A DNA stretch of 64,000 nucleotides, from positions 1 through 64,000 of the forward strand of contig NZ_NOXT01000116.1 of the NCBI RefSeq assembly GCF_002251755.1, in the 5' to 3' direction. The notes beneath the pieces were generated by a model. That model saw only the letters and a program-made list of their open reading frames with translations. It ran no database searches and was not told where the DNA came from. The stretch comes from Sandarakinorhabdus cyanobacteriorum (GTDB lineage Bacteria; Pseudomonadota; Alphaproteobacteria; Sphingomonadales; Sphingomonadaceae). Positions 21,656-60,800 of the stretch are shown piece after piece. A program made the position numbers and the translations under genes. How positions within the stretch are numbered: the first letter of the stretch is position 1; each line of letters starts with the position of its first letter.

Positions 21656-22423
21656 TCACAGGCTGAAATCCTCGCCCAGATAGACGCGGCGCACGGTTTC
21701 ATCCGCCACCAGCGCTTCCGGCGTGCCTTCGAACAGCACGCGGCCATCATAGATGATGCAGGCGCGGTTAACGATTTCAAGGGTTTCGCGGACGTTGTGA
21801 TCGGTGATCAGCACGCCGATGTCACGGGCGCGCAGCTGAACGACCAGGGCGCGGATATCGGCGATGGAGATGGGGTCGATGCCGGCGAACGGCTCGTCCA
21901 GCAGCATGATGGAGGGGTTGGCGGCCAGCGCCCGGGCGATTTCGGCGCGGCGCCGTTCGCCGCCGGAAAGCGCCATGGCCGGGGCGGCGCGCAGGCGGGT
22001 AATGTTGAATTCGCTCAACAATTCTTCCAGGCGGGCGGCGCGGGCGGCGGCATCGGGTTCGGTCACTTCCAGCACGGCCATGATGTTTTGTTCCACCGTC
22101 ATCCCGCGGAAAATGCTTGTTTCCTGAGGGAGATAGCCCAGACCCAGAGCAGCCCGGCGATACATGGGCAGGCCGGTGATATCGTGGCCATCGAGCAGGA
22201 TGCGGCCCGAATCCGGCATGGCGAGGCCCATGATCGAATAGAAGCAGGTCGTCTTGCCGGCGCCATTTGGTCCAAGCAAACCAACGACTTCGCCGCGCCT
22301 GACCGACAGCGAGACATCGCGCAGCACCACCCGCTTGTCATAGCGCTTGCCAATGCCGTCCACCGACAGGCCACGGGTTGTGGCGCCAGTGTCGGTGCGG
22401 GGCAGGGTCTGCGTGGTGCTCAT
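21656..22423 (-). CDS. lptB: LPS-export-type ABC transporter ATP-binding protein LptB
   Basis: 255-aa cytoplasmic ATPase that powers the LptB2FG extractor. Walker A GPNGAGKTT, the Q-loop in YLPQETSIFRG, signature LSGGERRR, Walker B IMLLDEPFAGID and the H-switch ITDHN are complete. LptB normally follows lptC-lptA; neither is upstream here, where a 200-bp region divergent to a TauE gene begins. An LptF/LptG pair is present at 57296-59604. In sphingomonads the cargo may be glycosphingolipid rather than LPS (inference). Confidence 0.94.
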   Translation of the reverse strand: MSTTQTLPRTDTGATTRGLSVDGIGKRYDKRVVLRDVSLSVRRGEVVGLLGPNGAGKTTCFYSIMGLAMPDSGRILLDGHDITGLPMYRRAALGLGYLPQETSIFRGMTVEQNIMAVLEVTEPDAAARAARLEELLSEFNITRLRAAPAMALSGGERRRAEIARALAANPSIMLLDEPFAGIDPISIADIRALVVQLRARDIGVLITDHNVRETLEIVNRACIIYDGRVLFEGTPEALVADETVRRVYLGEDFSL

Positions 22424-52329: not shown

Positions 52330-54081
52330 ATGGCTGACACGGCTGCAACGCTGCGCCCTACCCCGACCGATGATGGCCGCCCGATGCGCCAATCGGATTT
52401 CGGCACCGTGGTGGAGGCGCTGGATTATGCCGCGCAGGGGCAAAAGGGCTTCAACTTCCACGATGCCCGCGCCGATCTCGTCCGTGTCTATCCCTATGCC
52501 GAGCTGGCCGCCGATGCCCGCCGCTATGCCATGCACTTCATCGCCGAAGGCGTGCAGCCGGGTGACCGCATTGCCCTGATCGCCGAAACCGGTGCCGGTT
52601 TCGCCGCCGCCTTCTTCGGCGCGATCTATGCCGGCGCGCTGCCGGTGCCGCTGCCGCTGCCGACCAGCTTTGGCGGCCGCGATGCCTATGTCGATCAGAT
52701 CCGCGTGCAGCTGAACAGCTGTGATCCGGTGATGGTGCTCTCCCCCACCGGCCTTTATCCGATGGTGGCCGAAGCTGCCGCCGGCAAGTGCGCCGCGCAC
52801 GACTGGTCGCAATGGTTTGCAGCGGACGCGCCGGTGGTGGCGCTGCCGCAGGCCAAGCCGACCGACATCGCCTATCTGCAATATTCCTCGGGCTCCACCC
52901 GTTTCCCGCACGGCGTTGCCGTCACCCACGAGGCGCTGCTGGCCAATCTGGCCGGCCATGCCTTCATGATGAAGGTGGGCGAAGGCGACCGCGTGGTGAG
53001 CTGGCTGCCCTGGTATCACGACATGGGCCTGGTGGGCTGCATGTTGTCGCCGATGGCGAACCAGCTGTCGGTCGATTATATCGCCACCGAGGATTTTGCC
53101 CGCCGGCCGCTGTCGTGGCTCACGCTGATCAGCCGCAACAAGGATGCGACGCTCAGCTATTCGCCGACCTTTGGCTATGACATTTGCGCCCGCCGCATTT
53201 CCCATTCGATCCCGGTGGCCGAACGTTATGACCTGTCGCGCTGGCGCGTGGCCGGCAACGGCGCCGACATGATCCGCCCCGAAGTGATGCAGGCCTTTGT
53301 CGATGCCTTCGCGCCGGCCGGGTTCAAGGCCAGCGCCTTCCTGCCCAGCTATGGCCTCGCCGAAGCCACGCTGGCGGTGACGATCATGCCGCCGGGTGAC
53401 GGCATCCATTGCGACCTGATCGACGAGCGCACCCTGTCGGGCGCGGCGGGCGATGCCCGCGCCGATCAGCGGCTGCCCACCCGCTATCGCGCCATCGTCA
53501 ATTGCGGCAAGGCCGTGCCGGGCATGACGATCGAGGTGCGCGACGAGAAGGGCCGCGTCCTGCCCGACCGCAAGATCGGCCGTGTGTTCGTGCGCGGGCT
53601 GGGCGTGATGGCCGGATATTTCCGCGATCCTGAAGCCACCGAGGCGGCGCTGTCGCCCGACGGCTGGCTCGACACCGGCGACATGGCCTATATGAAGGAT
53701 GGTTCGATCTATATCGTTGGCCGCGCCAAGGACATGATCATCATCAACGGCAAGAATCACTGGCCGCAGGATATCGAATGGGCGATCGAGCAGCTGCCCG
53801 GCTTCAAGGCCGGCGACATTGCCGCCTTCTCGATCACCACCCCCTCGGGCGAGGAAGCGCCGGCGGTGCTGGTGCAGTGCCGCACCAGCGACAATGACGA
53901 GCGCATCAAGCTGCGCGACGCCATCCGCACCAAGGTGAAGGCGATCACCGGCATGAGCAGCGTGGTCGAACTGGTGCCGCCGCGCACCCTGCCGCGCACC
54001 TCGTCGGGCAAGCTGTCGCGCTCCAAGGCGCGGCTGCAATATCTGTCGGGCGAGATTCAGCCGTTTGAAGTGGCGGCCTGA
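52330..54081 (+). CDS. fatty acyl-AMP ligase of the sphingolipid locus
   Basis: 583-aa adenylate-forming enzyme of the FAAL type, activating a fatty acid as acyl-AMP for transfer to a carrier protein. AMP-binding motif YLQYSSGSTRFPHGVAVTHEA, PSYGLAEATLAV, WLDTGDMAYMKDG and the C-terminal hinge GRAKDMIIINGKNHWPQDIE are complete. GGGAGAAG precedes the ATG at 52330. The likely partner is the 83-aa carrier at 55733, with serine palmitoyltransferase as user. A homologue sits in the Caulobacter sphingolipid cluster. A palindromic repeat separates it from cerR. Confidence 0.88.
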   Translation: MADTAATLRPTPTDDGRPMRQSDFGTVVEALDYAAQGQKGFNFHDARADLVRVYPYAELAADARRYAMHFIAEGVQPGDRIALIAETGAGFAAAFFGAIYAGALPVPLPLPTSFGGRDAYVDQIRVQLNSCDPVMVLSPTGLYPMVAEAAAGKCAAHDWSQWFAADAPVVALPQAKPTDIAYLQYSSGSTRFPHGVAVTHEALLANLAGHAFMMKVGEGDRVVSWLPWYHDMGLVGCMLSPMANQLSVDYIATEDFARRPLSWLTLISRNKDATLSYSPTFGYDICARRISHSIPVAERYDLSRWRVAGNGADMIRPEVMQAFVDAFAPAGFKASAFLPSYGLAEATLAVTIMPPGDGIHCDLIDERTLSGAAGDARADQRLPTRYRAIVNCGKAVPGMTIEVRDEKGRVLPDRKIGRVFVRGLGVMAGYFRDPEATEAALSPDGWLDTGDMAYMKDGSIYIVGRAKDMIIINGKNHWPQDIEWAIEQLPGFKAGDIAAFSITTPSGEEAPAVLVQCRTSDNDERIKLRDAIRTKVKAITGMSSVVELVPPRTLPRTSSGKLSRSKARLQYLSGEIQPFEVAA

Positions 54082-54106
54082 CGCGCAGCGCCCCGGACAA
54101 GACCAG

Positions 54107-54181
54107 ACCCGCTCATGCCGAGCTTGTCGAGGCACGCACCACAGCCGGCGTGGTGCCTCGACAAGCTCGGCATGAGCGGGT
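54107..54181. repeat. palindromic intergenic repeat, family A, copy 3
   Basis: Perfect 29-bp inverted arms (54107-54135 and 54153-54181), each containing CTCATGCCGAGCTTGTCGAG or its complement, around a 17-nt centre. The transcript would fold into a very stable hairpin between the acyl-AMP ligase and the cerR-like gene, and might uncouple their expression. Same family as 14223 and 15112. Confidence 0.88.
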
Positions 54182-54197
54182 TGGGGTTTGTTGAACG

Positions 54198-55100
54198 ATG
54201 ACCGCTGACATTCCCCCCCTCGCCATCACCGGCGCCACCGGCTTCGTCGGCCGCCGCGTGCTGGCGCTGGCCGGCGCCCGCCCCGTCCGCGCCCTTACCC
54301 GCCGGCCGCAGCCGCCGCAGCCCGGTGTCGAATGGGTGCTGGGCGATCTTAACGACCGGCACGCCCTCGCCCGGCTTTGCGATGGTGCCGCCGCCGTGCT
54401 GCACATTGCCGGCGTGGTGAACGCGCCTGATGCCGCCGGTTTCCACGCCGGCAATGTCACCGGCACCGCCAATGTGCTGGCCGCAGCCGCCGCCGTGCCG
54501 CGCATTGTCCATGTTTCCAGCCTGGCCGCACGGGAACCCGGCCTGTCGATTTATGGCGCCTCCAAGGCCGCCGGCGATCGCCAAGTTCAGGCGCGCGACG
54601 GCGATTGGCTGATCGTGCGCCCGCCCGGTGTCTATGGCCCCGGCGATGCCGAAATGCGTGATCTGTTCGCGCTGGCGCGGTTCGGCCTGGGCGTCGCCCC
54701 CGGCGGCCCGGCGGCCCGCATCAGCCTGATCCATGTCAACGATCTCGCCCGCGCCCTGCTGGCGCTGGCCGATGCAGGGCCCAGCCGCACCGTGCTTGAA
54801 ATCGATGATGGCGCCGGTGCCCAGGGCGGCCACAGCCACGCCGGCTTTGCCCGCGCCATCGGCCGCGCGCTCGGTCGCCGGCCGCTGGTGCTGCCGATCC
54901 CCGGCGGCCTGCTCACCGCGCTGGCGGCATCGCGGCTGATCCCCAAGCTCACACCCGATCGCGCCCGTTATCTGGCCCATCCCGATTGGGTGGCGCGCGG
55001 CGGCAATGATCATCTGGCCGGCCTCTGGCAGCCGCAGATCGATCTCGCGGCCGGCCTGGCCGACACGGTGCGGGATTACCGCGCCCGCGGCTGGCTATAG
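54198..55100 (+). CDS. cerR: NAD-dependent epimerase/dehydratase, probable ceramide reductase CerR
   Basis: 300-aa extended short-chain dehydrogenase. The Rossmann motif GATGFVGRR lies at 13-21; catalytic Ser/Tyr-x3-Lys are in HVSSLAA and YGASKAAGD. In Caulobacter the epimerase in this cluster (CerR) reduces the 3-keto group of the sphingoid base or ceramide. Placement beside the acyl-AMP ligase, carrier protein, SPT and ceramide synthase supports the same role; the exact substrate is inferred. Its TAG abuts the stop of the convergent DUF5706 gene. Confidence 0.83.
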   Translation: MTADIPPLAITGATGFVGRRVLALAGARPVRALTRRPQPPQPGVEWVLGDLNDRHALARLCDGAAAVLHIAGVVNAPDAAGFHAGNVTGTANVLAAAAAVPRIVHVSSLAAREPGLSIYGASKAAGDRQVQARDGDWLIVRPPGVYGPGDAEMRDLFALARFGLGVAPGGPAARISLIHVNDLARALLALADAGPSRTVLEIDDGAGAQGGHSHAGFARAIGRALGRRPLVLPIPGGLLTALAASRLIPKLTPDRARYLAHPDWVARGGNDHLAGLWQPQIDLAAGLADTVRDYRARGWL

Positions 55101-55634
55101 CGCAAGCACGGTTTGCGCCACGAACATCGCAAAGGTGGCGATCAGGCCGCCGATGAACACGCGATAGCCCCAACCGAGATATTTGTATTTCTTTTGCGCC
55201 AGCACCTGGCCCAGCTGATAGACATCGCGCGCCATGGCCATCTGGATGGCATGATCATTGGCGTTGGTGCGTTCCAGCCAGTCGATCCAGGCCGCCTCGC
55301 TCATCTGGGTGAAGCCGTCAAAGAACAGCAGGTTGGGTGGCGCGGCCGGCCCCTTGGGCGGGCGGCCGATGGAGGGCACCACCGCCAGCATGCACAACAC
55401 GGCCGCCAACCCCGAACTGGCCGCCAGCACCAGCAACGCCGGGTTGTGTGCGGCCTCCTTCACCACCAGGGCAAAGATCACCGAATTCACCCCGATGATG
55501 ATGTTGGCCTTCTGATCGGCCATGGCCGACAGGGTGACGTGGTGCGCCTGCATGGTGCGGATCAGGTGGATGGCATTGGCATGCGACGCCCCAGGAACCC
55601 CGTCGGCCGCGGCATCCATGCTGATATCGGTCAT
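55095..55634 (-). CDS. DUF5706 (Pycsar-effector-type) membrane protein
   Basis: 179-aa protein with two adjacent membrane helices (KANIIIGVNSVIFALVV and LLVLAASSGLAAVLCMLAVV), a soluble middle and a C-terminal helix (FIGGLIATFAMFVAQTVLAL). The pattern ADQKANIIIGVNS matches DUF5706, whose members include PycTM effectors of cyclic-pyrimidine antiphage defence. No cyclase gene is adjacent. It is inserted antisense between cerR and the carrier gene. Start uncertain: ATGs at 55634, 55643 or upstream. Confidence 0.72.
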   Translation of the reverse strand: MTDISMDAAADGVPGASHANAIHLIRTMQAHHVTLSAMADQKANIIIGVNSVIFALVVKEAAHNPALLVLAASSGLAAVLCMLAVVPSIGRPPKGPAAPPNLLFFDGFTQMSEAAWIDWLERTNANDHAIQMAMARDVYQLGQVLAQKKYKYLGWGYRVFIGGLIATFAMFVAQTVLAL

Positions 55635-55732
55635 GTCCCCCATGCGCGGCATGATGGCACCAGATGAACAGTTCCGCAATTTGGCCATGATGTGGGGGCA
55701 AAGAGCCCGCAACGCTTGTGGATGGAGCCATC

Positions 55733-55984
55733 ATGACTGACCGCGCCGGGGTTTATGCCCGCATCATCGAACTGATCGAACCGTTGAATGCCAAGAAGGT
55801 GGCGCTCACCGAAGCCACGACCTTTGCCGGCGACATGGAGATGGATTCGCTCACCGTCATGGATCTGGTCGCCAGCATGGAAGACGAATGGGATATCCTG
55901 ATCCCCTTGAACATGCTGCCCGATCTGGAAACCATCGGCCAGGTCGCCGATGCTGTGCACGGCCTGGTGACGAAGAAGGGCTGA
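55733..55984 (+). CDS. acyl carrier protein of the sphingolipid locus
   Basis: 83-aa carrier. The phosphopantetheine site is Ser in EMDSLTVMDLV (DSL motif near residue 40), with the family's acidic helix II. GGAG precedes the ATG at 55733. It ends 4 bp before the SPT gene, so it is very probably the dedicated acyl donor for SPT, charged by the acyl-AMP ligase at 52330. Its sequence differs from the housekeeping AcpP (no GADSLD). Confidence 0.9.
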   Translation: MTDRAGVYARIIELIEPLNAKKVALTEATTFAGDMEMDSLTVMDLVASMEDEWDILIPLNMLPDLETIGQVADAVHGLVTKKG

Positions 55985-55988
55985 GGCC

Positions 55989-57203
55989 ATGACCGATCTT
56001 CTGTCGAAGTTTGATCCTCTGATCGCCGAACATGCCGGGCTGCTGTCGGCCGGCATCCGCGATCCGTTCGGCATCGTGATGGACAAGGTGCTGTCGCCCA
56101 CCGAAGCCATCATCAAGGGCCAGCACACCATCCTGCTCGGCACCTACAATTATATGGGGATGACGTTCGATCCCGATGTGGTGGCCGCTGGCCAGGCCGC
56201 CATCCGCGATTATGGCGCCGGCACCACCGGCAGCCGCGTGCTCAACGGCACCTACCAGACCCACAAGGAGTGCGAGGAAGCGCTGAAGGACTTCTATGGC
56301 ATGTCCCACGCCATGGTGTTCTCCACCGGCTACCAGGCCAATCTCGGCATGGTCTCCACGCTGGCCGGCAAGGGCGATTTCATCATCCTCGATGCCGACA
56401 GCCACGCCTCCATCTATGATGGCTGCAAGATGTCCAACGCCGACATCGTGCGCTTCCGCCACAATGATGCCGCCGATCTGGAAAAGCGGCTGAAGCGGCT
56501 GCCGCCCGAAGCCGGTAAGCTGGTGGTGCTGGAAGGCGTCTATTCGATGCTGGGCGACATCGCGCCGCTGCCCGAACTGGTGGCCATCGCCAAGGCGCAT
56601 GGCGCCATGCTGCTGGTCGATGAAGCGCATGGCATGGGCTTTTTCGGGCCCAACGGCCGCGGCGTGTACGAGGAACAGGGCGTCGCCGATGATGTCGATT
56701 TCGTCGTCGGCACCTTCTCCAAATCGGTGGGCACGGTCGGCGGTTTCTGCGTCTCCAACCATCCCAAGTTCGAGATTTTGCGCCTCGTCTGCCGGCCCTA
56801 TACCTTCACCGCCTCGCTGCCGCCGGCCGTGGTGGCCAGCGCCGCCACCTCCATCCGCAAGCTGATGACCGCGCACGACAAGCGCGCCCGGCTGTGGGAA
56901 GCCACCCGCCGCCTGCACGGTGGGCTGAAGGCGCGCGGCTTCAAGCTCGCCACCGAAACGCCGGAAAGCGCCATTGTTTCGGTGCTGATGCCGGATCAGG
57001 AAACCACGGCGCTGATGTGGTCCACGCTGATTGAACTCGGCGTCTATGTGAACATGAGCCGGCCGCCAGCCACGCCGGCCGGCGTGTTCCTGCTGCGCTG
57101 TTCCATCTGCGCCCTGCATTCGGATGCGCAGATCGACACGGTGCTGGGCAAGTTCGAACAGGCCGCGCAGATGGCCAATCTGGCCTTGCACGAGCCCGCC
57201 TGA
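55989..57203 (+). CDS. spt: serine palmitoyltransferase
   Basis: 404-aa soluble PLP enzyme of the alpha-oxoamine synthase family that condenses serine with a long acyl thioester to 3-ketosphinganine, the first step of sphingolipid synthesis. The Schiff-base Lys is Lys245 in GTFSKSVGTVGGF, nearly identical to Sphingomonas paucimobilis SPT. LVDEAHGMGFFG and NYMGM match too. It is 4 bp behind the carrier gene and is followed by the LptF/LptG pair. AONS/KBL are excluded by the SPT-like active-site loop and the context. Confidence 0.94.
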   Translation: MTDLLSKFDPLIAEHAGLLSAGIRDPFGIVMDKVLSPTEAIIKGQHTILLGTYNYMGMTFDPDVVAAGQAAIRDYGAGTTGSRVLNGTYQTHKECEEALKDFYGMSHAMVFSTGYQANLGMVSTLAGKGDFIILDADSHASIYDGCKMSNADIVRFRHNDAADLEKRLKRLPPEAGKLVVLEGVYSMLGDIAPLPELVAIAKAHGAMLLVDEAHGMGFFGPNGRGVYEEQGVADDVDFVVGTFSKSVGTVGGFCVSNHPKFEILRLVCRPYTFTASLPPAVVASAATSIRKLMTAHDKRARLWEATRRLHGGLKARGFKLATETPESAIVSVLMPDQETTALMWSTLIELGVYVNMSRPPATPAGVFLLRCSICALHSDAQIDTVLGKFEQAAQMANLALHEPA

Positions 57204-57295
57204 TTTCTTCATGACGCAGCAAGGCTGGGCGGCTATAGCATGGCCGCCCGGTCGTTCGCGCGCCCGGTGACCAAGACACCACCTGGGGCAGCTGC

Positions 57296-58510
57296 GTGAC
57301 CAAACGCATCGATCGTTACCTGTTCGGCCTGATCCTGGTGCCGCTCATCGGCACGCTGGTGGTGGCGGCCATGCTGCTGGTGCTGGATCGCATGCTGCGC
57401 CTGTTCGATTTCGTCATCAACGAAGGCGGGCCGGTCAGCGTGGTGTGGCGCATGCTGGGCAATCTGCTGCCCGAATATCTGTCGCTCGGCATCCCCATTG
57501 GCGTGATGCTGGGCACGCTGCTGGCCTTCCGCCGGCTGGCGCTGTCGTCCGAACTGGATTCGCTGCTGGCCGTCGGCATTTCCTATGGCCGGCTGCTGCG
57601 GGTGCCGTTCATCTTTGCCGGCGTGTTTGCCGTGGTGAATTTCGGCATTGTCGGCTGGCTGCAGCCGGTCACCCGCTATGCCTATGAGAATCTGCGCTTT
57701 GAACTGCGCTCGGGCGCGCTGGGTGCGTCGATCAAGGTGGGGGAATTCGCCAATCTGGGCGGCGGCATGACCTTGCGGGTGGAGGAATCCCGTGAAGGCG
57801 GCGCCGATCTCAGGGGCCTGTTCGTGCGCGGCAGCAAGGATGGCCAGACCATCGCCGCCACCGCGGCGCGCGGCAGCTTCCTCGCCACCGACGATCCCGA
57901 AACCATCCTGCTGCGCCTGCGCGATGGCACGCTGGTGCACAGCCCGTCGCCGGGGGCCACCCCGCGCGTGCTCAGCTTTTCCCAGCATGATGTGCCGATC
58001 CCGCTGCCGGAAATGGTCGCCTTCCGCAAACGCGGCGAAGGCAATCTGGAAGCAACGCTGCCCGAATTGCTGCGCAGCATGTGGAATGGCGACACGGCCG
58101 ATCTGCGCCGCAGCGCTGCGGCCACCTTCCACCGGCGTGTTGTCCAGTGCGTGATCATGTTCGTGCTGCCCTTCCTCGCCGTCGCCATGGCGGTGCCGCC
58201 CAAGCGCTCCACCTCGGCGCTGGGGGTGTTTCTGTCGATCATCGCGCTCGTCACCTTCCACAAGCTCACCGAATATGGCGAGCGCATGGGCGCGCTGGGC
58301 CGGGTTGATCCGGTGCTGGCGCAATGGGTGCCCTATGCCCTGTTCCTCGGCCTGGCGCTGTGGATGTTCCGCGTGCTGTGCCGGCCGGGCGGCCAGCCCA
58401 TCGGCGCGCTCGACCGCTGGTTCGGCAAGATCAGCGGCCTGGTCACCGGCCTGGCGGCGCGCCTGGTGCGCCGGCAGAGCTGGGCCGATGATGTGCTGTC
58501 GGCAGGGTGA
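57296..58510 (+). CDS. lptF: LptF-type permease in the sphingolipid locus
   Basis: 404-aa YjgP/YjgQ-family permease. Three membrane helices lie before and three after a periplasmic beta-jellyroll (about 135-265). The N-terminus IDRYLFGLILVPLIGTLVV and FRRLALSSELDSLLAVGIS are LptF hallmarks. GTG start. With LptB (one copy at 21656) LptFG extracts lipid from the inner membrane. It is in one run with spt and the ceramide synthase, so glycosphingolipid export is plausible. Whether another lptFG pair exists elsewhere is not visible. Confidence 0.9.
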   Translation: MTKRIDRYLFGLILVPLIGTLVVAAMLLVLDRMLRLFDFVINEGGPVSVVWRMLGNLLPEYLSLGIPIGVMLGTLLAFRRLALSSELDSLLAVGISYGRLLRVPFIFAGVFAVVNFGIVGWLQPVTRYAYENLRFELRSGALGASIKVGEFANLGGGMTLRVEESREGGADLRGLFVRGSKDGQTIAATAARGSFLATDDPETILLRLRDGTLVHSPSPGATPRVLSFSQHDVPIPLPEMVAFRKRGEGNLEATLPELLRSMWNGDTADLRRSAAATFHRRVVQCVIMFVLPFLAVAMAVPPKRSTSALGVFLSIIALVTFHKLTEYGERMGALGRVDPVLAQWVPYALFLGLALWMFRVLCRPGGQPIGALDRWFGKISGLVTGLAARLVRRQSWADDVLSAG

Positions 58511-58515
58511 TCCGC

Positions 58516-59604
58516 ATGGCCTTGTTCCCCTCCCGCACCATCGCCTGGTACACGGCGCGGATGTTCCTGATCCGGGTGGCGGCCTTCATCATCGGCCTCA
58601 CCGTCATTCTGCAGTCGCTGGATCTGTTGTCGGAAAGCGGCAAGGTGCTCGCAGCGGCCGGCAACACCGAGTCCGATCTGTGGGTCTATGTCTCCCTGCG
58701 CGCGCCGCAGATCGTGCAATTGTTTCTGCCCTTTTCGGTGCTGCTGGCCACGCTGGTGACGCTGGCGACCCTCAACCAGAACAGCGAGGTGGTGATCTTC
58801 AAGGCGGCGGGCTTGTCAGCCCACCATATCCTGGCGCCGCTGATGCTGGCGGCGCTGGGCGTTGCCGTGGCCAATTTCGCCTGGAACGAACGCATCGCCA
58901 CACGGGCCAGCGCCACGCTGAAGGCCTGGCAGGAGGTGGAATATCGCAAGCTGCCCAAGGCGACGGCCGCCAAGACGCAAAGCTGGGTGCGCGGCGGCGA
59001 TGATCTGTTCCACGCCGAAGCGGTCATCGGCCGGGGCGCCACCACCCGGCTGGATGATGTCACCATCTATGACCGGCGCGGCAACCGGCTGGTGCAGGTG
59101 GTGATGGCCGCCAGCGCGACACCGGCACCGGGCGGCTGGCAGCTGAACAAGGTGCGGCTGTTCGACGTGGCGAGCGGCGGGCTGGAACGGCGTGACCAGT
59201 TGCTGTTCACCACCGATGTGGTGCCGCGCCAGTTCACCACCGCCAGCATCAACCCCAATTTCGTGCCGCTGTGGGACTTGTGGCCGCAGATCGCCGAACA
59301 ACGCGCCGCCGGCAAATCCACCGACGTGCTGGAGGCGGCGGCCTGGCACAAGATTTCGGGGCCGCTGTCGGCGGTGCTGATGCCGCTCCTGGGCGCGGTG
59401 GCGGCCTTTGGCCTGGCCCGCTCCGGCAAATTGTTCGTGCGCGCGGTGATCGGCATGGCGCTGGGCTTCGCCTTTTTCGTGGCCGACAATTTCATGCTGG
59501 CGATGGGCAATTTCGGCACGGTGCCGCCGCTGATGGCGGCCTGGTCGCCGTTCATCCTGTTCCTGCTGATCGGCGAGGCCGTGCTGATCCGCACCGAGGA
59601 ATGA
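58516..59604 (+). CDS. lptG: LptG-type permease in the sphingolipid locus
   Basis: 362-aa partner permease of the same family. SRTIAWYTARMFLIRVAAFI, LINQNSE-like TLNQNSEVVIFKAAGLSAH and C-terminal helices ISGPLSAVLMPLLG and VIGMALGFAFFVADNFML are typical of LptG. The jellyroll domain occupies about 125-260. I choose the ATG at 58516 (GGTGAT six bases upstream); a GTG at 58507 overlapping the lptF stop is an alternative. It follows lptF directly and precedes the ceramide synthase by 41 bp. Confidence 0.9.
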   Translation: MALFPSRTIAWYTARMFLIRVAAFIIGLTVILQSLDLLSESGKVLAAAGNTESDLWVYVSLRAPQIVQLFLPFSVLLATLVTLATLNQNSEVVIFKAAGLSAHHILAPLMLAALGVAVANFAWNERIATRASATLKAWQEVEYRKLPKATAAKTQSWVRGGDDLFHAEAVIGRGATTRLDDVTIYDRRGNRLVQVVMAASATPAPGGWQLNKVRLFDVASGGLERRDQLLFTTDVVPRQFTTASINPNFVPLWDLWPQIAEQRAAGKSTDVLEAAAWHKISGPLSAVLMPLLGAVAAFGLARSGKLFVRAVIGMALGFAFFVADNFMLAMGNFGTVPPLMAAWSPFILFLLIGEAVLIRTEE

Positions 59605-59645
59605 TTGCCCCCAAACTGCCTTGATTGCCGCTTACCAAGGGCCCG

Positions 59646-60800
59646 ATGAGCATGATCACCCTGAAGCGCGTCGAGAGCGCGGCCGACCGCAAGGCCTTTG
59701 TTGACCTGCCGTGGACGCTCTATGCCAACGATCCCCATTGGGTGCCGCCGCTGAAAGGCGAGATGCTCGGCCTGATTGGCGGCATCAAGACCAACCCCTG
59801 GTTCGGCCATGCCGAAGCCGCCTTCTGGTTGGCGCTGAAGGATGGCCAGGTCGTCGGCCGCATTTCGGCGCAGGTCGATCAGCTGGTGATTGCGCCCGGC
59901 GCACCCGGCGGTGGCCCCGGCACCGGCCATTGGGGCATGTTCGAATGCATCGATGATGCAGCCGTGGCCAATGCACTGTTTGGCGCGGCGGAGGATAGGC
60001 TGCGCAGCCGTGGCATGACCCGGGCGCAGGGGCCGTTCAGCCTGTCGGTGTGGGACGAGCCGGGCCTTTTGGTGCAGGGCTTTGAAGGGCCGCCCACCGT
60101 GATGATGGGTCACCATCTGCCGCATTATGAGCGGCTGGTGACGGCGCGCGGCTATCAGGGGGTGAAGGATCTGCACGCCTGGTCACTGCCGATCGCCCAG
60201 CCGTTTCCGGAGATGGTGCAGCGCATCGTCGCCTTTTCCGAACGCAACGCCAAGCTGGTGACGCGGCCGGTGAACAAGGCGAAATTTGACCAGGAAGCCG
60301 CGCTGATCCTCGATATCCTGAACGACGCCTGGTCCGACAACTGGGGCTTCGTGCCGCTCACCCCGGCCGAAATCGCCTATGTCGGCAAGAAGCTGAAACC
60401 GATCATCTTTGAAAACCTGGTGCGCATCGCCGAATATGAAGGCGTGCCCGTCGGCTTCATGATCACCCTGCCCGACATCAACGAGCTGACCCGCGACCTC
60501 AATGGCAGCCTGTTCCCGTTCGGCTGGGCCAAGCTGTTGTGGCGGCTGCGCGCGCCACGCGTGAAGCGCATGCGTGTGCCGCTGATGGGCATAAGGAAGT
60601 CGCTGCAGGGCCACCGCGTCGCCAGCCTGATGGCGTTCCAGATGATCGAATATATCCGCCGCGCCTCCGTCGCCGAATTCGGCGCCAGCGAAGGCGAAAT
60701 CGGCTGGATCCTGGATGACAACGGCCCGATGCGCTCCATCGCCGACGCCATCGACAGCCATGTGACGCGCACCTATCGCATCTACGAACGCGCACTCTGA
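59646..60800 (+). CDS. bacterial ceramide synthase (GNAT-like acyltransferase)
   Basis: 384-aa protein of the GNAT-like family that includes Caulobacter bCerS, which N-acylates the sphingoid base. FVDLPWTLYANDPHWVPPLKGEM at the N-terminus, HYERLVTARGYQGVKDLHAW in the middle and the C-terminal acetyltransferase-like part EIGWILDDNGPMRSIADAI match the family I know as YghO-like. The last gene of the sphingolipid run. ATG at 59646 or 59652. Function rests on context plus family resemblance. Confidence 0.82.
   Translation: MSMITLKRVESAADRKAFVDLPWTLYANDPHWVPPLKGEMLGLIGGIKTNPWFGHAEAAFWLALKDGQVVGRISAQVDQLVIAPGAPGGGPGTGHWGMFECIDDAAVANALFGAAEDRLRSRGMTRAQGPFSLSVWDEPGLLVQGFEGPPTVMMGHHLPHYERLVTARGYQGVKDLHAWSLPIAQPFPEMVQRIVAFSERNAKLVTRPVNKAKFDQEAALILDILNDAWSDNWGFVPLTPAEIAYVGKKLKPIIFENLVRIAEYEGVPVGFMITLPDINELTRDLNGSLFPFGWAKLLWRLRAPRVKRMRVPLMGIRKSLQGHRVASLMAFQMIEYIRRASVAEFGASEGEIGWILDDNGPMRSIADAIDSHVTRTYRIYERAL

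Follow-up and report, generated by a model that had tools for sequence, protein, structure and literature searches.

A separate LptF/LptG type in the sphingolipid locus of Sandarakinorhabdus cyanobacteriorum, a candidate sphingolipid extractor

What does a gene pair annotated for lipopolysaccharide (LPS) export carry when it stands inside a sphingolipid synthesis locus? The question is raised by a 64,000-nucleotide stretch of the Sandarakinorhabdus cyanobacteriorum genome (positions 1 to 64,000 of contig NZ_NOXT01000116.1, assembly GCF_002251755.1; hereafter the window), in which lptF and lptG follow spt, the gene for serine palmitoyltransferase (SPT). A first-pass annotation of the window had proposed that this LptFG pair is specialised for sphingolipid. 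Further analysis indicates that the pair very probably forms the membrane portion of a transporter of the LptB2FG type, on a separate sphingolipid-type branch, and would act as a dedicated sphingolipid extractor on a shared LptB/LptD machine. The separate type, the linkage to spt, the lack of any other pair in the genome, and the failure to find LpxC and WaaA bear out the proposal, whereas the substrate itself, like the direction of transport, the shared bridge, and a path ending in LptD, is something that we infer. Gene content, linkage, the missing LpxC and WaaA, the separate ancestry, and the single LptB and LptD were obtained by computation.

Ancestry, copy number, and linkage of the LptFG pair

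Trees were built for LptF (78 rows) and LptG (77 rows), as quick trees with long-branch warnings, and for the two concatenated (73 rows, after the long or odd rows L153, L154, L157, L177, and L119 were dropped, from this tree and from the sequence alignments alike; both single-gene trees kept L153, L154, L157, and L119, and only the LptF tree kept L177). Genomes with LpxC and two pairs stood in for the Caulobacter proteins. Both single-gene trees divide into an LPS type and a sphingolipid type, the LPS-type branch having Shimodaira-Hasegawa approximate likelihood ratio test (SH-aLRT) values of 97 (LptF) and 100 (LptG). In the concatenated tree, the sphingolipid type comprises 38 rows including the window (100/98) and the LPS type 34 rows (100/100). 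The window LptF and LptG group with the pairs of spt-bearing genomes and not with those of LPS makers, and a tree in which the 12 rows of sphingomonads join the 34 of the LPS type was rejected by the approximately unbiased (AU) test (p-AU 0.0023, for a grouping chosen after the tree had been seen).

The gene content of the host points the same way. In the assembly (3.53 Mb, 130 contigs, 99.95% completeness), LpxC and the WaaA domain each had 0 matches, so that no lipid A/Kdo synthesis via these enzymes was found. No second lptFG pair was found either; the LptF_LptG family has 2 matches in the genome, both at this locus. The window is thus not a case of an LPS-type pair in an LPS-making strain, an outcome that the first-pass annotation had set against its own proposal. 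The LptB at 21656, which had been named as the motor, is the sole LptB above cut-off found in the genome and sits 35 kb from the sphingolipid locus. The genome also holds one LptC, plus one LptD on another contig.

The copy number of LptF/G follows SPT and LpxC. All were searched for in the same 232 alphaproteobacterial genomes, where SPT (counted at E <= 1e-100) occurs in 34/232 and LpxC in 202/232. At least four LptF/G matches were found in 11/12 genomes with both SPT and LpxC, compared to 2/190 with LpxC and no SPT (G131 and G296; five such genomes had three matches), a contrast with a Fisher p of 2e-15 when genomes are taken as independent. Some of the five matches in G134 are fragments of a single gene lying at contig ends. 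When SPT is present and LpxC is not, LptFG occurs in 20/22 genomes (19 with two matches, one with three) and is missing from 2, and WaaA was found in 0/22 of these genomes compared to 12/12 with both SPT and LpxC. Among the eight genomes without SPT and without LpxC, 3 have an LptFG pair and 5 do not. Three genomes with LPS-type LptFG and neither LpxC nor SPT (G158, G161, and G217) were considered as exceptions at first; because all three have WaaA, they probably make LPS, LpxC having been missed or replaced by another deacetylase.

The type of the pair follows the same lines. First, two-pair genomes with SPT have one pair of each type in 11/11 cases. Second, the sphingolipid type is held by all 20 of the 20 genomes that have SPT and LptFG and lack LpxC. 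Third, it was seen in 0/23 LPS-only genomes of the class set; among the rows of the sphingolipid type, only L153, long and doubtful, comes from a genome without SPT. What is added here is that the sphingolipid-type pair is the pair remaining in the window genome and in its sampled LPS-free relatives. Because families f26, f65, and f75 each hold one sphingolipid-only and one LPS-only genome in the tree, exchange of the LPS and sphingolipid states probably happened more than once. The trees point to both LptFG types being old and separate in ancestry. Taken together, the comparison with related genomes suggests that the window pump is a separate, old version carrying sphingolipids towards the cell surface. 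As a separate observation, very divergent second LptFG pairs were seen in two SPT-free LPS makers (L153 in G131 and L154 in G296), mostly outside both types.

The genes around the pair differ between the types. In genomes of the sphingolipid type, spt lies within 15 kb of the pair in 20/31, compared to 0/12 for LPS-type pairs in genomes also having SPT, and the window lptF, 92 bp downstream of spt, belongs with the former. Conversely, lptD lies within 3 kb of 21/29 LPS-type pairs and of 0/31 sphingolipid-type pairs. Loci of other families show the pair accompanied by aasR, cerR, acpR, spt, cerS, a fatty acid hydroxylase, and head-group genes. This linkage is repeated from genome to genome, which excludes chance placement.

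Within the Sphingomonadales, LpxC was found in 0/118 genomes, SPT (at the same threshold) in 116/118, and LptF/LptG in 115/118, mostly as two genes. Positions could be compared in 108/118, those with both genes among the matches listed, and outside family f1 lptF or lptG lies within 15 kb of spt in 50/52 genomes. Linkage of lptFG to spt is therefore widespread, though not every genome in the family of the window has it. Five genomes of the order in which LpxC was not found (G003, G050, G056, G071, and G084) have four or five LptF/LptG matches; they may carry more than one sphingolipid-type pair, each for a different lipid. Another LPS-free sphingomonad, G018, has a third, single LptF-like gene far from spt (L206 6171-7316, also L177), which has a long branch in the LptF tree and adjoins a gene beginning like the L203 glycosyltransferase.

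Further comparison of residues suggests that the types diverge in the half that faces the substrate, whereas the contact with the motor is common to both. E. coli LptF E84 and LptG E88 contact LptB, according to excerpts of PMC5548808, and these coupling-helix glutamates are invariant in the sphingolipid-type (38/38) and LPS-type (34/34) rows and present in the window. LptG R301, reported as essential in the excerpted text of PMC6744409, is retained in 35/38 sphingolipid-type and 31/34 LPS-type rows. The LptG K40 and K41 positions, in contrast, are basic in 29/34 and 33/34 LPS-type rows compared to 1/38 and 9/38 sphingolipid-type rows, and the LptF K30 and R292 positions are basic in 38/38 and 37/38 sphingolipid-type rows compared to 1/34 and 1/34 alphaproteobacterial LPS-type rows, E. 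coli having both. An arginine at position 244 of the window LptF is found in 38/38 sphingolipid-type rows.

Counterevidence and alternative readings

Several observations weigh against a dedicated sphingolipid extractor. First, the sphingolipid-type branch is less supported in the single-gene trees (SH-aLRT 84 for LptF and 91 for LptG), and the very long row L153, from the SPT-free genome G131, falls among the sphingolipid type in the LptG tree and outside both types in the LptF tree. Second, synthesis and pair do not always coincide. For example, SPT is present in two genomes of one genus in family f55 (G164 and G320), and searches of both for LptFG, LptD, LptB, LpxC, and WaaA found none of these; sphingolipid synthesis without the Lpt machine seems possible there, which stands against a strict rule. 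Another f55 genome, G253, has a sphingolipid-type pair. Similarly, G173 has SPT and LpxC yet an LPS-type pair only, and SPT without any LptFG match was seen in G009, G021, and G037, Sphingomonadales genomes that are 93-96% complete. Third, within family f1, lptF or lptG lies within 15 kb of spt in only 26/56 genomes. Finally, the window LptG keeps a lysine at K41, K40E/K41E changes in LptG were harmless in E. coli according to excerpts of PMC5548808, and the positions of LptG K34 and R136, which contact LPS in E. coli, are basic in neither type. For these reasons, an argument on the substrate from E. coli LPS-contact residues was set aside as weak.

G173, G164, and G320 loosen the link to SPT: the first has SPT without a sphingolipid-type pair, and the other two have SPT without LptFG. 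The pair might accordingly export another envelope lipid, such as a non-ceramide glycolipid, being linked to sphingolipid genes only since both serve the outer membrane. This is improbable in view of two results. One is that the sphingolipid type was not seen in the LPS-only genomes, the doubtful L153 aside. The other comes from the two sub-groups into which the sphingolipid type divides in the concatenated tree (100/100 and 100/99), one made up of the sphingomonads, including the window, with f34 and f99. In the non-sphingomonad sub-group, for which 19 of 22 LptF-tree rows were examined, the pair stands amid ceramide-linked head-group genes, with a DAGK-type kinase in 17/19, a metallophosphatase in 16/19 (query locus counted), and an NTP-transferase in 16/19, and usually near cerS. 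The 13 loci of the window's sub-group have 0, 7, and 1 with a metallophosphatase, a DAGK-type kinase, and an NTP-transferase, respectively, and the window itself has none. This contrast between sub-groups is only a lead, because the queries came from the non-sphingomonad sub-group and the stretch lengths differ.

A similarly small chance is left for a pair that moves sphingolipid but bypasses LptC-LptA-LptD, flipping or extracting it for another acceptor. Such a bypass would agree with the absence of lptD beside any of the 31 sphingolipid-type pairs and with LptC family matches that are weak or missing in some such genomes (G157, G214, and G288). The distribution of LptD argues against it: LptD is kept in 20/20 genomes with SPT and LptFG and without LpxC, and in the 56 genomes searched, the 7 without LptD are exactly the 7 without LptFG. 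Last, an ordinary LPS-type exporter placed among sphingolipid genes by accident, which the Pfam scores for LptF/LptG and the LptG match to the NCBIfam LPS-export equivalog would allow, is very improbable and largely refuted: LpxC and WaaA were not found in the genome, the trees speak against it, with the grouping among LPS-type pairs rejected, and spt linkage is confined to the sphingolipid type.

A dedicated sphingolipid extractor on the shared Lpt machine would mean that the organism gave up making lipid A, lost its LPS-type LptFG, and kept the sphingolipid-type pair only. Where both lipids are made, one LptB motor and one LptD exit would serve two permease pairs. This fits the single LptB and LptD of genomes with both pathways: the 12 such genomes have one LptB above cut-off each (45 ABC candidates were scored for the count in large genomes) and one LptD each, except for contig-end pieces in G284. 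A second LptC, such as that named in Caulobacter, was looked for with PF06835, which gave one match per genome in this divergent family. Both permease types appear to share LptB and LptD.

A broader proposal, for and against which we see the case as evenly balanced, is that Lpt is a general conveyor with exchangeable LPS and sphingolipid permease cartridges of old, separate ancestry. LPS would then have been abandoned more than once in Alphaproteobacteria, the lipid A genes being dropped together with the LPS cartridge. The sphingolipid cartridge may also be tuned to the head group, its sub-groups following the head-group genes (metallophosphatase at 0/13 compared to 16/19 loci). Beside lptFG, the phosphosphingolipid-type set stands in the non-sphingomonad sub-group and is lacking in that of the window.

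If true, this would explain how bacteria can put sphingolipid in the place of LPS in the outer membrane and yet need no new transport machine, and the type of LptFG would serve as a marker to predict the surface lipid exported by a given genome. An annotation as LPS export permease is uninformative on LPS unless lipid A genes are present. The sphingomonads offer a clean test bed, since with one LptFG pair and no LpxC, a depletion phenotype cannot come from LPS.

The sphingolipid locus and its other genes

Each of the seven genes that the first-pass annotation had placed at 52330-60800 was recovered by open reading frame (ORF) coordinates and profile matches (Table 1). The run in one direction with small gaps also held up: acpR-spt-lptF-lptG-cerS lie on the plus strand with gaps of at most 92 bp (acpR-spt 4 bp, spt-lptF 92 bp, and lptG-cerS 20 bp, with a 4-bp overlap of lptF and lptG), and aasR and cerR lie upstream of acpR on the same strand. 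The aasR ORF is open from 52159, 52330 being the start taken earlier. With spt, a dedicated acyl carrier protein, an acyl-AMP ligase, CerR, and CerS (the last by homology and fold only), this is a ceramide synthesis locus. A scan for promoters gave 0 sigma-70-like sites where 1.6 were expected, and 8 terminator-like sites where 4.9 were expected. As no sigma-70-like promoter was found, it is the spacing that points to co-transcription in an operon, and the genes of the locus may be co-expressed.

Table 1. Coordinates in the window of the sphingolipid locus genes and of lptB
Feature	Coordinates	Strand	Basis
aasR-like fatty acyl-AMP ligase	52330..54081	+	PF00501 E 2.7e-54; NF006624 858.6 bits, cut-off 600
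cerR-like short-chain dehydrogenase/reductase (SDR) reductase/epimerase	54198..55100	+	PF01370 E 1.8e-19; no specific curated family reached
PycTM-family membrane protein ORF	55095..55712	-	PF18967 74 bits, cut-off 27.2
acpR, acyl carrier protein for SPT	55718..55984 (ATG at 55736 possible)	+	PF00550 E 2.5e-7
spt, serine palmitoyltransferase	55989..57203	+	NF047603 740.9 bits, cut-off 670
lptF, sphingolipid-type permease subunit	57296..58510	+	PF03739 207.3 bits; tree group
lptG, sphingolipid-type permease subunit	58507..59604	+	PF03739 227 bits; tree group
cerS, putative ceramide synthase	59625..60800 (ATG at 59643 possible)	+	homology, fold
lptB, ATPase expected to power LptFG	21656..22423	-	TIGR04406 357.7 bits, cut-off 240

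The adjoining lptF and lptG both exceed the PF03739 cut-off of 27.9, which places them in the LptF/LptG permease family. Against the NCBIfam equivalogs, LptG scores 283.2 (cut-off 240, TIGR04408) and LptF 229.6, marginally below its cut-off of 230 (TIGR04407).

CerS reached no curated family and gave only a sub-threshold GNAT match (PF00583, E 0.004). Three other families have homologues with 40-43% identity in their sphingolipid loci (L203, L204, and L205). The AlphaFold model, built with 8 sequences (mean pLDDT 78.6), resembles GNAT acetyltransferases, with several tandem-GNAT proteins among the matches (best E 2.2e-14, TM-score about 0.57). This tandem-GNAT-like fold agrees with that of bacterial ceramide synthase.

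Further comparison used 80 named spt loci, the best 80 of at least 594 and close relatives only; the closest SPT relatives among them are Sphingomonadales metagenome-assembled genomes and Sandarakinorhabdus (92-97% identity). The acpR gene is present in 79/80 of these loci and cerR in 54/80. Of the loci that extend 9 kb or more in each direction from spt, lptF and lptG are present in 39/57, and of these 39, 35 have them on the same strand as spt and 34 have cerS. The PycTM-family ORF, which was absent from the first-pass gene list and separates cerR from acpR on the opposite strand, occurs in 30/80 named loci, in 30/30 of them antisense to spt and upstream of acpR. Because this ORF, of a Pycsar effector family, is conserved inside a lipid locus, a membrane role is suggested rather than phage defence. 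In Rhizorhabdus histidinilytica, a hybrid histidine kinase (CHASE3, HisKA, receiver; L080 11268-13253) lies between spt and lptF.

Comparison with known systems

There may be a preprint that connects Lpt homologues with sphingolipid transport in Caulobacter, in which case the general claim would be less new. Among open-licence PubMed Central papers, preprints excluded, LptF/LptG and sphingolipid were found joined only in PMC11324152. None of the five Lpt- or LPS-related terms looked for occurs in PMC9386255, and PMC13318209 treats glycosphingolipid synthesis, its excerpted text having no 'Lpt'. According to excerpts of PMC11324152, Caulobacter crescentus LptC2/F2/G2 (CC_1168, CC_1156, and CC_1155), which are second versions of LptC, LptF, and LptG, are proposed to move phosphosphingolipids from the inner to the outer membrane, a proposal made without transport being investigated. 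The same excerpts name orthologues in Sphingomonas wittichii and Zymomonas mobilis by BLAST and call the route of sphingolipids to the outer membrane unknown. The general idea is hence not new, having been published as a proposal for Caulobacter (PMC11324152).

The Caulobacter LptC2/F2/G2, in the excerpted description, resemble the window pair in being Lpt versions inside a sphingolipid gene region. They differ in their host: Caulobacter, the control genome, has LpxC, WaaA, and an LPS system, whereas the window genome has only this LptFG pair, and LpxC and WaaA were not found in it. Compared to the LptB2FG(C) complexes of E. coli and Shigella (PDB 6mhu, 6s8g, and others), the window LptG matches the LptG of solved complexes (E 3e-25) and the LptB-contacting glutamates are kept in the pair, but the pair lies on a separate branch with type-specific residues, and no LPS pathway was found in its host. 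Finally, all five genes of the Rhodobacteria ceramide set, as given in excerpts of PMC11324152, are present in the window in the order aasR, cerR, acpR, spt, and cerS, with the difference that the window has lptF-lptG between spt and cerS and the antisense PycTM-family ORF between cerR and acpR.

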